20,593 bases of DNA from a virus: positions 1-20,593 of the IMG/VR virus record IMGVR_UViG_3300048580_000569; one strand, 5' to 3'. The notes beneath the pieces were generated by a model, which did not search any database, had not been told where the DNA came from, and worked only from the letters and a program-made list of their open reading frames with translations. The stretch's first letter is position 1, and the number at the start of each line of letters is the position of its first letter. The position numbers and the translations under genes are program-made. Positions 12,305-20,575 of this stretch are shown one piece after another.

Positions 12305-14839
12305 ATGCCTCAAGTATTTCCAGAAATACAATTAGTATTATGGTATGAAAATTCTGTTAAAGTAGAGACCAAAAACTCTTTAATAGAATACGGTACTAAT
12401 GGTGTCATTGGTAGATCTAGAACTAACTTAGTAAATGATGTAAGAAAAACATTTAGTTTACAAGGTGTTTTAAGAGATAGAAATGAAATAAACGATTTTT
12501 TATTATCTAATAGAGGTAAACCGTTTGTATTTCGTCCGTATAATGACGATTACTGCGGTCTTTTTGTATGTAGCAGTTGGAGTTGGCGATGGACTGCATT
12601 AAATGTATGGGAATTTTCAGCTACTTTTAGTGAGGTATTCCGTCCTGGATGGATACCTACGGCCATCCCATACCGTTTATCTATAGGTTCAGAGTCCTCT
12701 GTAGATGCGATCTTCCCTGAGATTGTATTTTATAGTTTATTTGGTGGTTCATCATCTAATGCAGTATTACAAATTACTGATCTTTATGGTTTATACTTTG
12801 GTTCTGAAAGCAGCGGTTCTCTACAACTGGGTGTAGGTTTTTCAGATCCTTATCAATTATTTTCCGGTTTTGATGCAAGCGCTAGTTTACAAATAGGAGA
12901 TTTAATTAGTACTCCTTACAGTCTGAATTCTGGAAATGATAGCGGAAGTTCTTTATATATAACAGAGATATATGTAACGACATCGGGTACTGAGTCTAGT
13001 GCTATATTATCGCTAGGATTAGGTATATCCGAAAGTTTGTTACTAAATTCCGGGAATGAAACGAATGTTAATATAGAAATAGGAGACTTGATCTCGGTTC
13101 CATACACATTGAACTCTGGTAGTGATAATGGAACTATTCTGGTTTATGTAGAGTCTTATGCGCTAAATTCAGGTAATGAGTGTAGCGTGAATTTAGAATT
13201 AGGCCCTGGGTTTGTTGAATCTTATTTACTAACCTCTGGTATTGAATCTAATACCAATTTGCAGTTAGGAGATCCTGTAAGCATTCCTTACAATTTAAAT
13301 AGTGGTACAGACTCGGGATCTAATTTTGTTATGACACAAACAGATCCTTATTACGGCAATGTGTCTTTATTACTATTAGGTAACGGAACTAACAATAGTA
13401 CTAATTTTGTGGATTCTGGTCCAGCTAATAGAACAGTGACAGTTAGCTCTGGCACACCTATAATTACGACTTCTCAGTCTAAATACGGAAACGGTTCTAT
13501 TACGGGGGGTAAGATTGAAGTACCTTACAACTCAGCTTTTGACTGGGGCACTGGAGACTTTACTATAGAATTTTGGTTTAGATATAGTGGAACATTGGCG
13601 GATGCGTTTCGGTTTACGGAAGTAAAAGTTTCACCAGGATTTGCTTTTGGTGGACGTGTTGTATCTGGCATTAGATATATAAGTATTCTCCAAGAAGGTA
13701 TAGTATGGGAATCAGAATTCCCATGGACTCCTCCAAATCCCAACACTTGGGCTCATATAGCATTGACGAGATCTGGTAGTACTGTACGAATTTTCCAAGA
13801 TGGTGTCTCACTTGGAACTAGAACTAATACAAGAAATTGGTCGATGAACAATAGTGCTTTCATTATATCCCCAAGTTCTACTCCTTCTAGTGTTGGTATT
13901 GCATCTGGAGGTGCATGGTTTGATGACTTCAGGGTAACAAAAGGTGTTGCTCGATATACCACTGATTTTACTCCACCAACACAAGAATTAGAAGTTCCAA
14001 GAAACAGCGATCCTTACTCTTTAAGTGTCGGTGTGGAATCTAATGCAAGTTTCAATGATCCCTATTCCTTAAATGCTGGCATAGAGTCTAGCGCTGGTTT
14101 AAATGATCCCTATTCCTTAAATGCTGGCATAGAGTCTGGATCTGAACTTACTTTGTCTAGTGTAACAACATCTGACCCTTACTATAATAATGTGTCTTTA
14201 TTATTATTAAGTAATGGTACTGATAATAGTACTAATTTTATTGATTCTGGACCCGCTAATAGAACCGTGACAGTATTTAGCGGTACTCCTGTAATTACTA
14301 CATCACAGTTTAGGTATGGTAACGGCTCTATTACTGGCGGTAAGATTCAGACACCTTACAACTCAGCTTTTGACTGGGGTACTGGAGACTTTACTGTGGA
14401 GTTTTGGTTCAGATACAGTGGAACACTTGCTAACGAAGTGAGATTCTGTAGCGGTACTACAATTATCGGATCTGGCGCAAGCCCATGTTTTGCTTTTGGT
14501 TCTAGACTTTTTGGTGGTAGTCGATACATTGGCGTGCTGCAAGAAAACGTTGTATGGGACGTTGAATTTAATTGGACTCCCGTGGGTGTCAATACTTGGG
14601 CGCACATCGCCTTGACTAGACAAGGAACTACGATGAGAATTTTCCAAAATGGTATAAGTTTAGGGTCCGCCACAAATAGTAGGAATTGGAATATTAATAA
14701 CAATCCTTTCTTTGTGATGCCTGATATTGTAAATACGGCATCTGGAGGTGCGTGGTTTGATGACTTCAGAGTGACTAAAGGTATAGCGCGTTATACCGGC
14801 ACGTTCACTCCCCCGACAACAGAAGCTCCAGTTCAATAG
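12305..14839 (+). CDS. gpM-like tail protein fused to repeats and two LamG-like domains (probable adhesin)
   Basis: An 844-residue tail protein. Residues 1-116 resemble the lambda minor tail protein M family: FSLQGVLRDRNEINDFLLSN, then KPFVFRPYND, CSSWSWRW and WEFSATFSEVF follow the order of lambda gpM, which is only about 109 residues long. Residues about 123-345 hold about 11 imperfect ~20-residue repeats of the form PYxLNSGxESxxxLxLGD. Two concanavalin-like LamG (Laminin_G_3-type) domains follow (about 345-560 and 623-843), each with PYNSAFDWGTGDFTxEFWF, NTWAHIALTR, GGAWFDDFRVTKG and ARYT...FTPPT, separated by three more repeats. The layout suggests the first domain docks on the tail tip and the rest reaches the host surface glycans. 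No ribosome-binding site precedes the ATG. Receptor binding is inference from the LamG fold. Confidence 0.82.
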   Translation: MPQVFPEIQLVLWYENSVKVETKNSLIEYGTNGVIGRSRTNLVNDVRKTFSLQGVLRDRNEINDFLLSNRGKPFVFRPYNDDYCGLFVCSSWSWRWTALNVWEFSATFSEVFRPGWIPTAIPYRLSIGSESSVDAIFPEIVFYSLFGGSSSNAVLQITDLYGLYFGSESSGSLQLGVGFSDPYQLFSGFDASASLQIGDLISTPYSLNSGNDSGSSLYITEIYVTTSGTESSAILSLGLGISESLLLNSGNETNVNIEIGDLISVPYTLNSGSDNGTILVYVESYALNSGNECSVNLELGPGFVESYLLTSGIESNTNLQLGDPVSIPYNLNSGTDSGSNFVMTQTDPYYGNVSLLLLGNGTNNSTNFVDSGPANRTVTVSSGTPIITTSQSKYGNGSITGGKIEVPYNSAFDWGTGDFTIEFWFRYSGTLADAFRFTEVKVSPGFAFGGRVVSGIRYISILQEGIVWESEFPWTPPNPNTWAHIALTRSGSTVRIFQDGVSLGTRTNTRNWSMNNSAFIISPSSTPSSVGIASGGAWFDDFRVTKGVARYTTDFTPPTQELEVPRNSDPYSLSVGVESNASFNDPYSLNAGIESSAGLNDPYSLNAGIESGSELTLSSVTTSDPYYNNVSLLLLSNGTDNSTNFIDSGPANRTVTVFSGTPVITTSQFRYGNGSITGGKIQTPYNSAFDWGTGDFTVEFWFRYSGTLANEVRFCSGTTIIGSGASPCFAFGSRLFGGSRYIGVLQENVVWDVEFNWTPVGVNTWAHIALTRQGTTMRIFQNGISLGSATNSRNWNINNNPFFVMPDIVNTASGGAWFDDFRVTKGIARYTGTFTPPTTEAPVQ
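12671..13340 (+). repeat. Degenerate ~20-residue coding repeats in the adhesin
   Basis: About 11 copies of a motif such as PYSLNSGNDSGSSL, SYALNSGNECSVNLELG and PYNLNSGTDSGSNF follow one another, alternating shorter and longer units. Conserved are Tyr, Leu, Ser-Gly, an acidic residue and Ser, then a Leu-x-Leu pair, consistent with stacked beta hairpins in a fibre. Copies have diverged at the DNA level. Confidence 0.75.
13340..14836 (+). repeat. Tandem duplication of the LamG-like domain
   Basis: The segments 13340-13980 and 14174-14836 encode the two LamG-like domains. They share exact DNA stretches, for example 26 identical bases at 13523-13548 and 14354-14379 in the segment encoding PYNSAFDWG, so the duplication is fairly recent. 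The variable stretch between the conserved blocks (around 13600-13690 and 14430-14540) differs most and may be the ligand-facing surface. Confidence 0.75.
14054..14137 (+). repeat. 36-bp exact direct repeat, 48-bp period
   Basis: A 36-base sequence encoding NDPYSLNAGIES occurs at 14054-14089 and again, identical, at 14102-14137. The 48-base period equals 16 codons, so gain or loss of a unit keeps the reading frame of the adhesin. Confidence 0.9.
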
Positions 14840-15340: not shown

Positions 15341-15424
15341 AATATCTGAAAAAGACTCGATTTAGAAAAAAGCTCATAAAGTTGTGGAATAGAAGATCTT
15401 CCAGATGGTTTTACACGCTTGTCA

Positions 15425-16240
15425 ATGTTTACGAAACCTAGCGATATATTGAACGATCGCGTTAAAGAGGCGATCGTTCGGGATTGTACGATCGACGTTA
15501 ATAATGAACGTTGCGGTTTCGTATTGAAAGATTTATCAGTTATTCCTGTTACTAACATATCTGAAAAACCAAACGATTCTTTTATACCAGAACAAGAATC
15601 ATTTGATCGCTATGAAGACGATATTATAGCGATCTATCATTCTCACAATACAGAATACACACCTGGGTATTTGTCATTAAGAGACATCGAACAATCTAGA
15701 TCTCATCAAATACCCTATATTATGTATCACACTACATTTGATATGTGGGATATGTTTGATGCTGACTATATATATCCTTATCCATTAAGAGAACCTGATA
15801 ATTATGGCACCTTAGATTATCTATTAAATGTACCATTTTCTTGGGCTAGAGCTGATTGTGCTTGGCTCATAAGAGCGTATTATAAAATGTTTTTTAATTT
15901 TGATATAACTGATTATCCAAGACCGTTGGGCGATGATTGGTATAAAGAAGCTAGTAAAAGTAGTAAGGATGGAATGTATTACGATCTATTACTAAATCAT
16001 CCAGGGCTGACACAAGTTAATACTGAAACCCCTAAAAAAGGGGATATCGTACTAATGCGATCGTTCGGTAGTCGTGTAGCCAATCATAGTGGTGTAATTG
16101 TAGAATCTGCTACAAGCGATCGTTATGCTACTATATTACACACGTTAGAATCGGGTACTTTCAGCCGTGTTGACCTATGGAGCGGTCCTAGATGGCATAC
16201 AGGACGTTTACATTCTGTATGGAGATTATCTCCTAGATAG
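15425..16240 (+). CDS. gpK-like tail assembly protein: JAB/MPN plus NlpC/P60 peptidase
   Basis: A 271-residue homologue of lambda gpK with two peptidase domains. The N-terminal JAB/JAMM metalloprotease-like domain has ERCGF (Glu28), HSH (His72, His74) and GYLSLRDIEQS (Ser84, Asp87), the complete zinc-binding signature. The C-terminal NlpC/P60 domain has RADCAWLIRAYY (Cys145), RVANHSGVIVES (His221) and ILHTLESG (His239), the expected Cys-His-polar set. In lambda-like phages this protein helps finish the tail tip and may cut peptidoglycan during entry. The start is ATG at 15425; the frame extends to TTG at 15419. Neither has a good ribosome site. It runs on the plus strand, opposite to its usual partners L, I and J, and overlaps the 3' end of L by 15 bases. 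Confidence 0.9.
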   Translation: MFTKPSDILNDRVKEAIVRDCTIDVNNERCGFVLKDLSVIPVTNISEKPNDSFIPEQESFDRYEDDIIAIYHSHNTEYTPGYLSLRDIEQSRSHQIPYIMYHTTFDMWDMFDADYIYPYPLREPDNYGTLDYLLNVPFSWARADCAWLIRAYYKMFFNFDITDYPRPLGDDWYKEASKSSKDGMYYDLLLNHPGLTQVNTETPKKGDIVLMRSFGSRVANHSGVIVESATSDRYATILHTLESGTFSRVDLWSGPRWHTGRLHSVWRLSPR

Positions 16241-16885
16241 TGTAGGAAAGGCACTTGTTGGCAATAGAAGATTATTACCAAAACGTAGTTTACAAGATCT
16301 TATTGATTTACCGCATTCGTCTTTTGTGGGATCTGCTGTAGCTTGATCAGCTAACGTGAACATATTCGTTCCTGTATATCCACACTCAGGGCCTCTATAT
16401 TCCCATACACAAGATCGCAGTGCATATCTACTAGGTAAAGTAGCTTGACCGAATTCTAATGGCGATGAGCCCTCAAATGTTATTTGCATCCAAGGTTCAT
16501 AAGATATTACTCTACTTATTATGTAATCTATTTCTTGTAACTTTGCAGTAGAATCTGGTGTAGATCCACCATCTGTGAATCTAAATTTTGTTCTTATTAT
16601 TTTTAGAGAAGAACCTTCTAGTCCATCTACAGAGTCAATTAAATTTGATATAACACCATTAGGATCTCCTACGGTGATTTCTAATCTTGGTACAGGGCCA
16701 GTAGATGTAATTTCTATAGTTTTGTGTGTAACAGGGATTAAACTTATGCTACCACCCCAAGACACTTGTTGGTTAGAGAAGCGAAATACATCGAATGGGT
16801 TATCAGGATTAAAATCCCTCAATATGTATATATAAACGTCACTAGATTGATCTAAGCTTATTAAAGACTGTTTGAATTGTGTCAT
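16226..16885 (-). CDS. gpL-like minor tail protein with four-cysteine Fe-S site
   Basis: A 219-residue homologue of lambda minor tail protein L. The N-terminal part has VSWGGSISLIPVTHKTIEIT and RLEITVGDPNGVIS, typical of this family; the C-terminal part carries four cysteines, SCVWEYRGPECGYTG (Cys159, Cys168) and DECGKSIRSCKLRFG (Cys191, Cys198), with the spacing used in lambda gpL to hold a 4Fe-4S cluster. It forms part of the tail tip that joins the tip protein J to the tube. ATG at 16885 overlaps the J stop as ATGA, so translation is coupled. In lambda L precedes K, I and J; here it follows J. The C-terminal 15 bases overlap the convergent K gene. Confidence 0.88.
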   Translation of the reverse strand: MTQFKQSLISLDQSSDVYIYILRDFNPDNPFDVFRFSNQQVSWGGSISLIPVTHKTIEITSTGPVPRLEITVGDPNGVISNLIDSVDGLEGSSLKIIRTKFRFTDGGSTPDSTAKLQEIDYIISRVISYEPWMQITFEGSSPLEFGQATLPSRYALRSCVWEYRGPECGYTGTNMFTLADQATADPTKDECGKSIRSCKLRFGNNLLLPTSAFPTLSRR

Positions 16886-19524
16886 GCTGCGATTATACCT
16901 AAACGTCTGTTAAAAGATAGATATAGATTTTGTGTAGCACCTGCGATCGCTGGTGACGATTCTACATATTGACTTATACCACCATTTAGTAAGACACTTG
17001 CTACACGGATATAGTAAGTGCCACTAGACAGATTTTCTATTATCAACTCACTAGTAGACACCGACAATATGGGCGACCACGAACCCGTAGCACCTCGTTT
17101 CCATTGGACTTGATAAGAAGTTATAAAAGATCCGCCCGTTTCGGGTTTACTCCATCGTCCTATTAATTTAAATACATTAGCGCTTTGTTCTACAAAACCG
17201 ACACCTAAATTTATAGGTGGTGGTGGTATAACAGGAATTTCTTCTTCTTTTTCTGTGGATTCTAACTCCCATCCATTTTCAATTATATTGAATTTGTCTT
17301 CTCGATATTCGGTAGCCAGAATTTCTATCAAACCACTGTCTTCAGCGTCTACTTTTATTACTTGTACTCTATATTTTTTTGTATTTATAACGTCTATAAA
17401 CCAGTTAGATTCTTGTAGCGGAATTGTAGTAAAAGGAGTTGATACTTGTATGGTATCCGTAGAACCTGCCCCGTTACTAATCGTCTTAGTTTCTATTGTT
17501 AAATCTGGCATGGTGCAAGTTATAGAATAACCTGACGCATTTGGTAATATTATTTCTTGATCTAATTCTATCGTTGTACTTGTAGCTGATGTTATCAAAC
17601 CGCCATAACGTTTTTTAGATCTCTTCCAATCTATGACGTTTATAATATCACCAGGTCGTACAAAAAGCCCAATTAATCTACACTTGAAGGACACGGTTTC
17701 TGTTTCTAGGAAATTAGAATAAACCTGATAACGTCCTTGTCTATAGGCTTGACCTCTAGATGTACATCCATAAGCTGCAAAATCAGTTTCTCTATAACCA
17801 AATTTTTTAAGAGCGTCTTGTACTTCTATTGATTCTACTGTTTGTCTATAGTAATCATCTGGATCATTCCATGTTACATAAGCGACTGAATATCTTGTTT
17901 GTATATCAGTTGATGAGTAACTGAACATACCGTTTTCTACATCAGCATTAGTAAATTGTTGAATAACATCACTAGGTTTATCCTGCCAGAATTTTAAGCA
18001 TGTACCATCCCAATAATAATGTGAGTTACAAGCACTCAAAAATCCTTCTAATACTTTATGTGCGGCTTCTCCTTGTTGAAGTACAGTATTACATCTAAAT
18101 CTACGTTCTGTACCACCAAAACCATTAGTTACAAACTCATTATTATATCTAGATATGTCATATAGATCATACGAGGACACCTGACAAGAATCTATCTGTT
18201 TACCTAAACCATAACGACTATTAGTTAGAATGTCATATAACTGCCACACCGGATCAGATGTCGCTATGGGTGGCTCATAAAGAGTACCATCCCATATCCC
18301 ACTGAAGTCCAAGCCGCGATCTGTGTCGTTAACTACAGCATTACTAGGAATGGCTACAGTCCTACCACCGATCTTATACCCTCTTTGTGGTTCACTAGAG
18401 AATTGTTCTGCGTCAAACTCAGCGCTCACTACAGCCGTATGAGCATAATTTATCTTGGTATCATTTACGACAGTGGTGTAACTTACAAATTGAATAGTAT
18501 TCTGTAAATTACTGTTAGGTGTTGGTTCTTGTACTAACTTTTCTACTCTTATAGTGATAGGTCTTGAAAAATTTGTATACGCGATCGGTATATTGTATTC
18601 AAATTCTGTAGCACTAGAAAATTTTACTGTGCGATCGTCGGAATGAACTGTTGCAACACCACCAATATCGGTTAATTGTATTCTGAACGCCATCCGACTC
18701 GCAACTACGTCACCATCTTCTTCATATTGTTGTACCTGAAATGCTAGTCTAACTCTTACAAAACTTATATCACTAACAGTGAAAGTTCTTGAAATAGGTA
18801 TATTATATTTTACTTCTGTATTAACACTGGTTTCAGATGTAAGTCCTTCTTTAACGGTGGCATCTAATAGTCTTTGTGAACCTGTACCATTTCTACTATC
18901 CCACTTAAAGCCCGTAAAGTTTTTACTACCATCACTATTACCTACAGGCGTTCTATCCAAATAAATAGAACGATCGCCTTCTAATAAGCCTTCTATTGGA
19001 CCTTCTGATAAAGCTTCTACTACTACGGCTCTTGCAGAACTGAGTGCCGTATCAGGATCTATGTCAGGGTTTTTAGATTTGCCACCACCACCGTTACTAG
19101 AAAAAATACCATGTTCACCTACAAGGTATGTATGGTAGTCATCTACAACAAAATTGTACACAGTGGTTCTTTCTAGTTCTTCTTCTACCTTTAGTAACGG
19201 TCTGTATTCTAAATATTTGTCAATAAAGAATTCGTCTATATTCCATTTACCAATCTCTTTAAAAGAATTACGTTCTGTGTAAAACGCATGATTGGGAGTC
19301 GCTATTACATAACCTCCCCAGTATGTGTATTTAAATACTTGTTGGTCGTGGTGAATGTTTGTAGATAATACTTTTTTGATAGATATTTTATTTTCGGGAG
19401 AGAAACAAAATACTTCATCCCCTGTTTTTATATTTTGTATGGGTATTAATCCTAATGGTGTCTGTATAAGAGTATCACCACTAAGACATCCTCCTCCTTC
19501 ACCCCAAAACTCATCAAATTTCAT
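16882..19524 (-). CDS. gpJ-like tail tip protein carrying an inserted Hint domain
   Basis: An 880-residue homologue of lambda tip attachment protein J. After a 12-residue start (MKFDEFWGEGGG) comes a Hint domain (13-144, listed separately), then GGGGKSKNPD and the J core: ALSEGPIEGLLEG, TEVKYNIPISRTFT, LDFSGIWDGTLYEP, YDILTNSRYGLGKQID, FVTNGFGGTERRFRCN, FWQDKPSD, WNDPDDYY and AAYGCTSRGQAYRQGR, closely parallel to lambda J in the same order. A fibronectin type III domain (about 770-865) ends the protein, so the long central fibre and receptor-binding end of lambda J (1132 aa) are missing. ATG at 19524 overlaps the I stop (TGATG) and has AGGTGG at proper spacing; a GTG one codon earlier is less likely. 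It forms the tail tip hub and central part of the DNA-delivery machine. Confidence 0.92.
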   Translation of the reverse strand: MKFDEFWGEGGGCLSGDTLIQTPLGLIPIQNIKTGDEVFCFSPENKISIKKVLSTNIHHDQQVFKYTYWGGYVIATPNHAFYTERNSFKEIGKWNIDEFFIDKYLEYRPLLKVEEELERTTVYNFVVDDYHTYLVGEHGIFSSNGGGGKSKNPDIDPDTALSSARAVVVEALSEGPIEGLLEGDRSIYLDRTPVGNSDGSKNFTGFKWDSRNGTGSQRLLDATVKEGLTSETSVNTEVKYNIPISRTFTVSDISFVRVRLAFQVQQYEEDGDVVASRMAFRIQLTDIGGVATVHSDDRTVKFSSATEFEYNIPIAYTNFSRPITIRVEKLVQEPTPNSNLQNTIQFVSYTTVVNDTKINYAHTAVVSAEFDAEQFSSEPQRGYKIGGRTVAIPSNAVVNDTDRGLDFSGIWDGTLYEPPIATSDPVWQLYDILTNSRYGLGKQIDSCQVSSYDLYDISRYNNEFVTNGFGGTERRFRCNTVLQQGEAAHKVLEGFLSACNSHYYWDGTCLKFWQDKPSDVIQQFTNADVENGMFSYSSTDIQTRYSVAYVTWNDPDDYYRQTVESIEVQDALKKFGYRETDFAAYGCTSRGQAYRQGRYQVYSNFLETETVSFKCRLIGLFVRPGDIINVIDWKRSKKRYGGLITSATSTTIELDQEIILPNASGYSITCTMPDLTIETKTISNGAGSTDTIQVSTPFTTIPLQESNWFIDVINTKKYRVQVIKVDAEDSGLIEILATEYREDKFNIIENGWELESTEKEEEIPVIPPPPINLGVGFVEQSANVFKLIGRWSKPETGGSFITSYQVQWKRGATGSWSPILSVSTSELIIENLSSGTYYIRVASVLLNGGISQYVESSPAIAGATQNLYLSFNRRLGIIAA
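19093..19488 (-). other. Hint (intein/BIL-like) domain within gpJ
   Basis: A ~132-residue insert between GGG and GGGGK. It opens with CLSGDTLIQTPLGLIPIQNI and KTGDEV (block A, nucleophile Cys13), has YVIATPNHAFYT (block B with the Thr-x-x-His pair) and ends with VYNFVVDDYHTYLVGEHGIF then SSN (blocks F and G). There is no room for a homing endonuclease. At its end, standard inteins have His-Asn followed by Cys, Ser or Thr; here it is Ser-Asn followed by Gly. That loss of the penultimate His and +1 nucleophile points to a bacterial intein-like domain that cleaves rather than splices. Cleavage after Asn144 would leave J starting GGGGKSK, close to the usual N-terminus of this family. The fold call is firm, the activity inferred. 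Confidence 0.88.
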
Positions 19525-20102
19525 CACGATCCACCTACATTAGTGGCTGTGATGTACGATCGCACGGTGGCAGATAATACCATAGATGGCGCTAGCATAA
19601 CACCATATACTACATATATACGCTGTCCTATTTCTGCTGTGTTGGAAACGCCAGAAAATATAAAAGATTTTTCGTTCTCTTTATCAGCATCATTTTTAGG
19701 TTTTTGTCCCATTAAGCCGGATACAAGTAATAAAGAACCTGTAACGATTAATTGAACAGCGCTCAGACCTAATAGACCTCCAGAGAATATCAATCCTCCA
19801 GCAATAAGAGCTGTACCAAGAATTATTTTTCCTACTTTACCAGCACCACTAGGTAAAGCTGTAATATGAACACTTTTATCTTTTACTATAGGATCTGATA
19901 GTTCATCTTCTCCTATTTCATAATTTCCGTGTCTGACTTTGAAGAATGTACCTTTTTCTGTTTCATCTAGGATGAATTGTCTGAAGTCTTTGAAATTAAC
20001 TTCTAGAAATCTAACACAATCTTTGGTGCTATGCGCTACACATCTAAATTCTTTACCATATTTCTTTCGTAGAGAACCATGTAAATAAATAGTAGTGTAC
20101 AT
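19524..20102 (-). CDS. gpI-like tail assembly protein with ubiquitin-like N-terminus
   Basis: A 192-residue homologue of lambda tail assembly protein I. Residues 1-83 fit its ubiquitin-like beta-grasp domain (MYTTIYLHGSLRKKYGKEF, FRQFILDET, DPIVKDKSVHITALP). A Gly-rich hinge (SGAGK) is followed by a hydrophobic region about 92-131 (ILGTALIAGGLIFSGGLLGL), and the end, IYVVYGVMLAPSMVLSATV then TATNVGGS, matches the lambda gpI ending with its YGxMxVGSxVxS pattern. ATG at 20102 overlaps the upstream stop (TGATG), with AAGGA seven bases before it; a GTG one codon earlier is too close to that site. In this family the ubiquitin-like part is thought to be processed by the JAB domain of gpK, here encoded on the opposite strand. 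It is translated just before J and likely helps assemble it. Confidence 0.88.
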   Translation of the reverse strand: MYTTIYLHGSLRKKYGKEFRCVAHSTKDCVRFLEVNFKDFRQFILDETEKGTFFKVRHGNYEIGEDELSDPIVKDKSVHITALPSGAGKVGKIILGTALIAGGLIFSGGLLGLSAVQLIVTGSLLLVSGLMGQKPKNDADKENEKSFIFSGVSNTAEIGQRIYVVYGVMLAPSMVLSATVRSYITATNVGGS

Positions 20103-20575
20103 CACACCGTCCTTGTTACATATGTTATGTTGTAACCAATTGTATTTGCACCATTGAGATTAATAACAAGAGCTGTATTCGCTGCGAGATCTAAAGGTGA
20201 ATGAGGATGATACTCAACGCGATCTCTAAAACCAACTGTACCTTTTGCTGACAGTAAAACTCTCCTGCGATCTGTAGATGTACCACTTCGAACGATCGCT
20301 AATGTTTCTACAGCGCTTTCGTTTTGAAGTTCTAAATTTAGTATTCTGATATAGTTACCACTACCAGGAGCCGCTACAATCGTATTGTTACCACTTGTAG
20401 AGATGGTTCCGCTTAGGTACACTTCAGCGATTCCATAATTTCCCATGTCAGCAAGCACCTCATCATAAGAATGAGGTGTGTATATAGGCACCGAACCAGA
20501 CAACCCTTTATCTTCTGAAAGGAGTATAGCCGGATTGGTATTACCGTCTAAAACTGATATGTTCCTGGTAGGCAT
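20102..20575 (-). CDS. Small probable virion protein (157 aa) ahead of gpI
   Basis: Not firmly recognised. It is beta-rich and low in charge, with GNYIRILNLELQNESAVE, TDRRRVLLSAKG and a C-terminal segment NTALVINLNGANTIGYNITY; similar segments ending in a strand pair occur in many phage head and tail decoration proteins. It begins MPTRNISVLDGNTNPAILLS, an extended N-terminal arm. It heads the minus-strand tail cluster and its stop overlaps the gpI start, so it is probably a virion component assembled with the tail. The start ATG at 20575 has no Shine-Dalgarno sequence and is preceded by a run of A residues and a TATATAA box at the window edge. Confidence 0.68.
   Translation of the reverse strand: MPTRNISVLDGNTNPAILLSEDKGLSGSVPIYTPHSYDEVLADMGNYGIAEVYLSGTISTSGNNTIVAAPGSGNYIRILNLELQNESAVETLAIVRSGTSTDRRRVLLSAKGTVGFRDRVEYHPHSPLDLAANTALVINLNGANTIGYNITYVTRTV

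Follow-up and report, generated by a model that had tools for sequence, protein, structure and literature searches.

A Hint domain in the glycine-rich leader of the phage tail-tip protein J, a probable self-removing maturation module resembling type A BIL domains

BIL domains of type A can join their flanks when the freed amine attacks the N-terminal thioester (PMC4031507), and among the BILs characterised so far cleavage products predominate (PMC4031507, PMC7664689). For the Tetrahymena BIL2, ATP-free transfer of a ubiquitin-like domain onto substrates has been reported (PMC8616854). On the phage side, TipI carries a ubiquitin-like domain that a Gly-rich linker connects to a C-terminal domain, and Iyer et al. 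predicted its processing at the Gly region by the TipK JAB peptidase (PMC1779556). In lambda gpI only the post-linker residues 135-223 are resolved, where they plug the tail-tip lumen; T5 pb3 has its counterpart in gpL, gpI and the N-terminal region of gpJ taken together (PMC10721106). The N-terminus of lambda gpJ adjoins gpL and the gpI plug. To our knowledge, covalent self-maturation of the hub/receptor-binding protein in lambda-like tails is undescribed, and in the open-access literature, where few subscription journals are covered, neither gpJ nor TipI is reported to contain a Hint or an intein. Here we describe a Hint domain in the J protein of an uncultured phage, which we consider is probably a type-A-like BIL Hint, kept as a maturation module of this tail-tip hub/central-fibre protein and removing itself in tail maturation. 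The presence of a Hint at the same J site in many other uncultured phages suggests a self-maturation step in tail-tip building that has so far gone undescribed.

The stretch of DNA analysed (the window) comprises an entire IMG/VR contig from an uncultured phage, 20,593 bases in length. Along its minus strand lie in succession a TipI homologue devoid of a Hint (tail assembly protein, 19524-20105; PHROG 32, 2.3e-36), J (16882-19524; 880 aa, stop included in the coordinates, ATG at 19524 with an alternative GTG at 19527) and a gpL homologue (16226-16885; Phage_tail_L, 6e-29), faced on the plus strand by a gpK homologue convergent to L (15419-16240; weak JAB plus NlpC/P60/CHAP matches, PHROG 30 at 2.3e-29). 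The tail-tip genes are divided between the strands, plus-strand K meeting minus-strand L in a 15-base overlap (window 15419-16885). A large tail protein encoded at 12305-14839 has a minor-tail-like N-terminus, two Laminin_G_3 (lectin-like) domains and a degenerate SLxSGxES repeat. Searched as a whole protein, J matches FNIII-A_GpJ (2e-16) and Phage-tail_3 (4.9e-12), both beyond their curated cut-offs, as well as NCBIfam lambda_TipJ (3.4e-106) and PHROG 31, central tail fiber J (3.5e-174), and the best Foldseek matches of the J core in the full-length model are the lambda gpJ chains in 8k35 and 8iyk. With FNIII-A_GpJ, Phage-tail_3, the hub architecture and the neighbours I and L all in place, the protein belongs to TipJ (lambda gpJ), and outside residues 13-144 it is a lambda-type gpJ. 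Over the whole window CGATCG occurs 34 times compared to 2.5 expected from base composition (~13x), an excess that resembles the HIP1 bias of cyanobacteria; the DNA polymerase B is closest, by identity and by score, to those of Anabaena, Nostoc and Dolichospermum phages, and the host is likely a filamentous cyanobacterium.

The J reading frame starts with MKFDEFWGEGGG, continues with C13LSGDT...TPNH...VYNFVVDDYHTY...SSN144 and then reads GGGGKSKNP; downstream of N144 the sequence is GGGGKSKNPDIDPD, followed by lambda-type J. The initial annotation had placed a Hint domain at residues 13-144 (19093-19488, minus strand), between GGG and GGGGK, and both sequence and coordinates are as it described them: a full Hint/BIL domain of 132 aa with no endonuclease insert, in which none of the residues required for the N-S acyl shift or for Asn cyclisation is missing. 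Cys1 of the Hint, the nucleophile for the N-S acyl shift, is J Cys13 (19486-19488); block B TxxH is TPNH, J residues 76-79 (19288-19299); the block F His is His131 in VYNFVVDDYHTY (19132-19134); and the domain closes with Ser143-Asn144 (19093-19098). Ahead of it lies the N-extein or leader MKFDEFWGEGGG (residues 1-12, 19489-19524), the least confident part of the model, which L011 and L013 share at 11 of 12 residues with one Gly fewer. Behind it the C-extein starts with GGGGK (residues 145-149, 19078-19092), a flexible linker in the model whose +1 residue is Gly, a non-nucleophile. All of these features lie on the minus strand.

The profile search and structure prediction by which the initial annotation proposed to check the domain both support it. 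PT-HINT (PF07591) is matched by the whole J at 1.3e-8 with 35.7 bits, above the cut-off of 27.7. A family profile of 57 diverse Hint sequences, the window sequence first, retrieved from the PDB the C. thermocellum BIL domain 2lwy at full length (3.6e-18), followed by the gp41-1 intein (2.7e-13) and T. thermophila BUBL BIL2 (1.6e-11). Given the same alignment, AlphaFold2 returned a confident Hint fold (mean pLDDT 83.5, the domain mostly >85; block means of ~85-97 across residues 11-140, ends 1-8 and 146-153 disordered), for which Foldseek also ranked 2lwy first (E 1.7e-12, rmsd 1.5 Å, 31% identity, TM 0.89 by target) among top matches comprising BIL, intein and Hedgehog domains. The full-length model puts the folded Hint ahead of the J core on flexible linkers (1-10 and 146-153). 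The predicted Hint fold together with Cys1 and TPNH in the sequence places the domain in the Hint superfamily.

Relatives of the window were gathered in several ways. In close relatives, with J identity >93%, the Hint is present wherever the contig extends that far, and it is also present in L018, at 53% identity. When the Hint plus J start of a 31% relative served as the scan query, 452 stretches encoding a relative were met, of which 80 were kept, and the matches listed from a DNA pattern scan for WGG...ATPNH, which were selected for ATPNH, joined the sample. Among the matches listed in the two scans there are at least 139 distinct Hint sequences, at least 138 of them at the J N-terminus and one in TipI; the 138 J-borne Hints are all N-terminal and nearly all within a glycine tract. 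They measure 127-132 aa, no endonuclease being present, and share a mean identity of 66% (minimum 30%). Cys1, TPNH, the block-F His and the C-terminal Asn are kept in 139/139 of the matches listed, TPNH partly by construction as ATPNH was demanded in the pattern-scan part, the other loci having been found without the pattern. Since 139 distinct and diverse sequences all keep these residues, we dismiss a chance origin of the Hint. Their conservation would indicate that activity is retained; it does not indicate the role of the product.

Of the 139 Hints among the matches listed, 128 have Ala at +1, 10 have Gly and one has Ser; a further pattern scan contributed 15 more in J, of which L286 has Thr at this position and the other 14 have Gly. 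L286 and L153 (Ser +1) are the single J-Hint cases where ordinary class 1 splicing could be allowed. Beyond the J site, 80 of 120 matches of the further pattern scan have a Hint-like CFxAGT domain after a Gly tract at the C-terminus of fibre-like phage proteins; as their ORFs end soon after the Hint (e.g. L277, L281, L289, L355; at most 180 aa past the Cys, mostly 130-175), only N-terminal, Hedgehog-like chemistry would be available to them. Four Hint queries of 50,697 phage records yielded, among the matches listed, no J-borne Hint; the records gave inteins in helicase, terminase, RNR and similar proteins, or matches to the J part only. A query of type-2 Hint plus J start matched 300 phage records, and those listed match in the J part only, bar three Ruminococcus phages with weak Hint matches. 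Among the matches listed in one scan of bacterial genomes, L108 is a tail-tip cluster in a cyanobacterial MAG with the order TMP, L, K, I, Hint-J, and L109 (6386-6820) holds a related Hint, at 43% identity, in an unrelated non-phage Flavobacterium protein.

Taken across all its members the family agrees with type A BIL, of which the window clade would be a variant: the +1 residue is Gly, in keeping with the type A lack of a +1 Cys/Ser/Thr nucleophile, and the clade ends Ser-Asn in place of the type A His-Asn. Type B was rejected because block G is present, with its invariant terminal Asn, and a class 1 intein because the +1 residue is Gly145. The initial annotation had judged classical splicing unlikely, which stands in that the class-1 branched-intermediate route is not expected when the +1 nucleophile is missing; splicing as such could nevertheless proceed by the amine attack of type A BILs (PMC4031507). 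It had also pointed to the missing penultimate His. The residue is indeed absent, and its absence is weak evidence against activity and not disqualifying, splicing that lacks it being on record in work cited by PMC4031507 (its refs 74 and 87). Among the 139 matches listed, the penultimate residue is Ser in the window clade alone (8 sequences) and His in the other 131, and the same eight have Cys at Hint position 28, where Ser or Ala is found elsewhere. Npu and Ssp DnaE inteins end in Ser-Asn and Ala-Asn. In the window Cys28 is Cys40 of J (19405-19407), possibly a redox or a compensating residue; because the eight sequences are mutually related, the pairing of penultimate Ser with Cys28 may be a single inherited event.

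The sequence around the Hint bears on what its removal would leave behind. Several Hint-less J proteins begin with a short leader of the form hydrophobic-x-G-[AS]-Gly-run-Lys (e.g. MNKKKIIGSGGGGGGKGGGG, IIGSGGGGGGKGGGG and IEGAGGGGSK), and several others carry the motif only in weaker form. A hydrophobic-x-G-x motif is found ahead of the Hint in 131 of the 138 J-Hints among the matches listed, with the caveat that leader motifs and Gly tracts are low-complexity sequence. With Ala or Ser at +1, a second leader copy (AGLGxxIxGAGGGGGGGKGGGG) stands behind the Hint in 126/129 matches listed, compared to 0/9 with Gly at +1, the window included. One leader is here divided by the Hint, FWGEGGG / GGGGK, as also in ISGAGGGG / C...HN / GGGGGK and IKGSGGGG / C...HN / GGGGK; the later pattern scan provided further split cases (L282, L293, L351, L360, L389) and further repeated leaders (L286, L288, L292, L319, L325), and L163 is split, yet without the hydrophobic-x-G motif. 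As the Hint splits the ordinary J leader in the window class, only religation would rebuild it, whereas the repeated leader of the +1 Ala/Ser class means that cleavage alone suffices there. The self-removing leader suggested in the initial annotation is one possible fit among several, as a split leader would be restored by religation.

We propose that the acyl group of Gly12 would move to Cys13 as a thioester and that Asn144 would cyclise, freeing J with a new start, Gly145-GGGK. The freed Gly amine would then attack the Gly thioester, so that the Hint is excised and MKFDEFWGEGGG is rejoined to GGGGKSK..., rebuilding an ordinary J leader; an unhindered Gly-Gly junction would favour this attack. 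In the competing outcome the thioester would be hydrolysed and the leader simply lost. The religated form would be recognised by the junction peptide MKFDEFWGEGGGGGGGK and the cleaved form by an N-terminal GGGGK, and either way a 15-kDa domain would come off the gpJ N-terminus before or during tail-tip assembly. We consider it very probable that the Hint is removed from most virion J. That religation is the main outcome in the window class we hold tentatively, at somewhat less than an even chance, and it may be minor, because characterised BILs mainly cleave (PMC4031507, PMC7664689). Between a role in the control or timing of assembly and a neutral passenger we see an even balance.

A related Hint occurs in the neighbouring protein of another phage group. 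In L149 (4010-5329, minus strand), met in the ATPNH pattern scan, the Gly linker of TipI is interrupted by a Hint, GAGGGGGGGG / CFPAGT...FVHN / GGGGKGGGG, which separates the N-terminal tail-assembly-I part from the hydrophobic plug part; the N-terminal part matches PHROG 32 (5.9e-24), and no Pfam tail-I match was found at 0.01. A directed scan found 24 further loci of this separate group (L246-L269), of which the 15 viewed in full have the identical layout. By a regular-expression test each of the 24 holds a single Hint ORF, and 117 J-Hint loci have no Hint-like ORF in the upstream 1.5 kb; no phage with a Hint in both I and J was seen among them. Transfer of the Hint into TipI is likely. As T5 pb3 corresponds to gpL, gpI and the gpJ N-terminal region combined, the J and TipI insertion sites neighbour each other in one assembly. 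The parallel with BIL2 is a lead for the TipI Hint and no evidence for J. It is conceivable, if rather doubtful, that a dedicated Hint family forms a built-in, ATP-free Gly-to-Gly ligation/cleavage step of tail-tip assembly, in which the J leader is rebuilt with Gly at +1 and the Gly end of the TipI ubiquitin-like part is made a thioester, an in cis counterpart of the predicted TipK JAB action.

The Hint and the remainder of J appear to have evolved together. Between the window and L011 dN/dS is 0.036/0.549 for the Hint and 0.031/0.478 for the rest of J, pointing to purifying selection on the window-clade Hint as strong as that on the remainder of the protein. In a set of 80 representatives the distances between Hints are correlated with those between J proteins (r = 0.61, the highest of 2000 permutations reaching 0.25), and Hint and J were therefore largely inherited together, the J-Hint appearing to be a co-inherited module more than a fast-moving passenger. 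On the J tree the presence of the Hint has to change three times; the tree is compatible with one origin, with long branches that leave its deep part unsure. Close Hint-less alleles were not found among the relatives sampled.

These data bear on other explanations of the domain. It may be a parasitic mobile mini-intein residing in a permissive Gly tract and useless to the phage, in line with the Hint fold, the flexible insertion site, the way the window-class leader is seamlessly divided and the related Hint in TipI. The endonuclease is absent, however, from domains of 127-132 aa, the +1 residue is unlike that of inteins, and the distance correlation, the strong purifying selection, the invariable J site and the lack of close Hint-less alleles among the relatives sampled make a parasite unlikely. 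A catalytically dead or structural domain retained in the virion tip could be argued from the penultimate Ser of the window clade; we regard it as very improbable, as Cys1, block B, the block F His and the Asn are conserved throughout the matches listed (139/139) and in known Hint domains Gly at +1 with a penultimate Ser is no bar to cleavage (PMC4031507).

An active domain might serve as a leader peptide that is only cleaved off, Asn cyclisation and thioester hydrolysis yielding a mature J from Gly145 while the 12-residue leader and the Hint are discarded. The missing +1 nucleophile and the prevalence of cleavage in BILs (PMC4031507, PMC7664689) agree with this, as does the full leader copy behind the Hint in 126/129 Ala/Ser relatives among the matches listed, for which cleavage is enough. 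In the window class such a copy is missing (0/9 of the matches listed), so that cleavage would leave J with a shortened leader lacking its hydrophobic-x-G start, and the retention of hydrophobic-x-G-x in 131/138 listed leaders is needless in a throw-away peptide; cleavage as the sole outcome is a serious possibility that falls a little short of an even chance. The Gly12 thioester might instead be handed to an amine of another protein or to a Lys of J, by analogy with Tetrahymena BIL2. That domain ranks close to the J-Hint among solved structures and has been reported to act as a ubiquitin-dispensing platform that makes isopeptide bonds (PMC8616854). The second phage group, where the Hint is right behind a TipI tail-assembly-I part that ends in a Gly tract, in a protein class with a ubiquitin-like domain (PMC1779556), is consistent with conjugation. 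Nonetheless what J could donate would be a short peptide (~10-24 residues) devoid of any folded domain, and a dedicated acceptor was not identified, making conjugation by J quite unlikely.

With a probable type-A-like maturation module as the preferred reading, the window phage and a large set of uncultured phages are predicted to carry out covalent self-maturation of a lambda-like hub/receptor-binding protein. More than 130 distinct compact Hints make up a natural family for Gly/Cys...Asn/Gly junctions, attractive for traceless peptide ligation or for release of an N-terminal Gly. An old question is touched as well, namely why TipI has a Gly linker by its ubiquitin-like domain and a peptidase as neighbour, because a related Hint occupies exactly that linker in another phage group.

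Compared to known systems, the closest by both profile and structure is the C. thermocellum BIL 2lwy, alike in fold, length (132 vs 138 aa), Cys1/TxxH/F-His/Asn and the lack of a +1 nucleophile, from which the window clade differs in ending Ser-Asn and not His-Asn. The bacterial proteins that carry the BILs described so far are non-conserved, and the domain lies in their variable regions (PMC7765530), whereas the J-Hint occupies a fixed site in a phage tail-tip Gly leader and is apparently co-inherited with J. Tetrahymena BUBL BIL2 (6y75/6tmm), the second BIL family among the best structural matches, likewise comes after a segment that turns into an acyl group fit for transfer, and offers the closest parallel for the TipI insertion; it belongs, however, to a eukaryotic polyubiquitin-like locus, whereas a ubiquitin-like donor domain is absent from J. 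Class 1 mini-inteins (gp41-1, Npu DnaE) share the fold and the N-terminal chemistry, and unlike J with its +1 Gly they rely on a +1 Cys/Ser/Thr and a branched intermediate. With lambda the window phage has in common the J core, a TipI with a Gly linker and the JAB peptidase TipK, yet lambda gpJ is without a Hint, and in the window phage self-processing would be supplied in cis. The new elements are the protein that hosts the domain, the constancy of its site, the scale and the connection with tail-tip Gly tracts; the fold itself is known.
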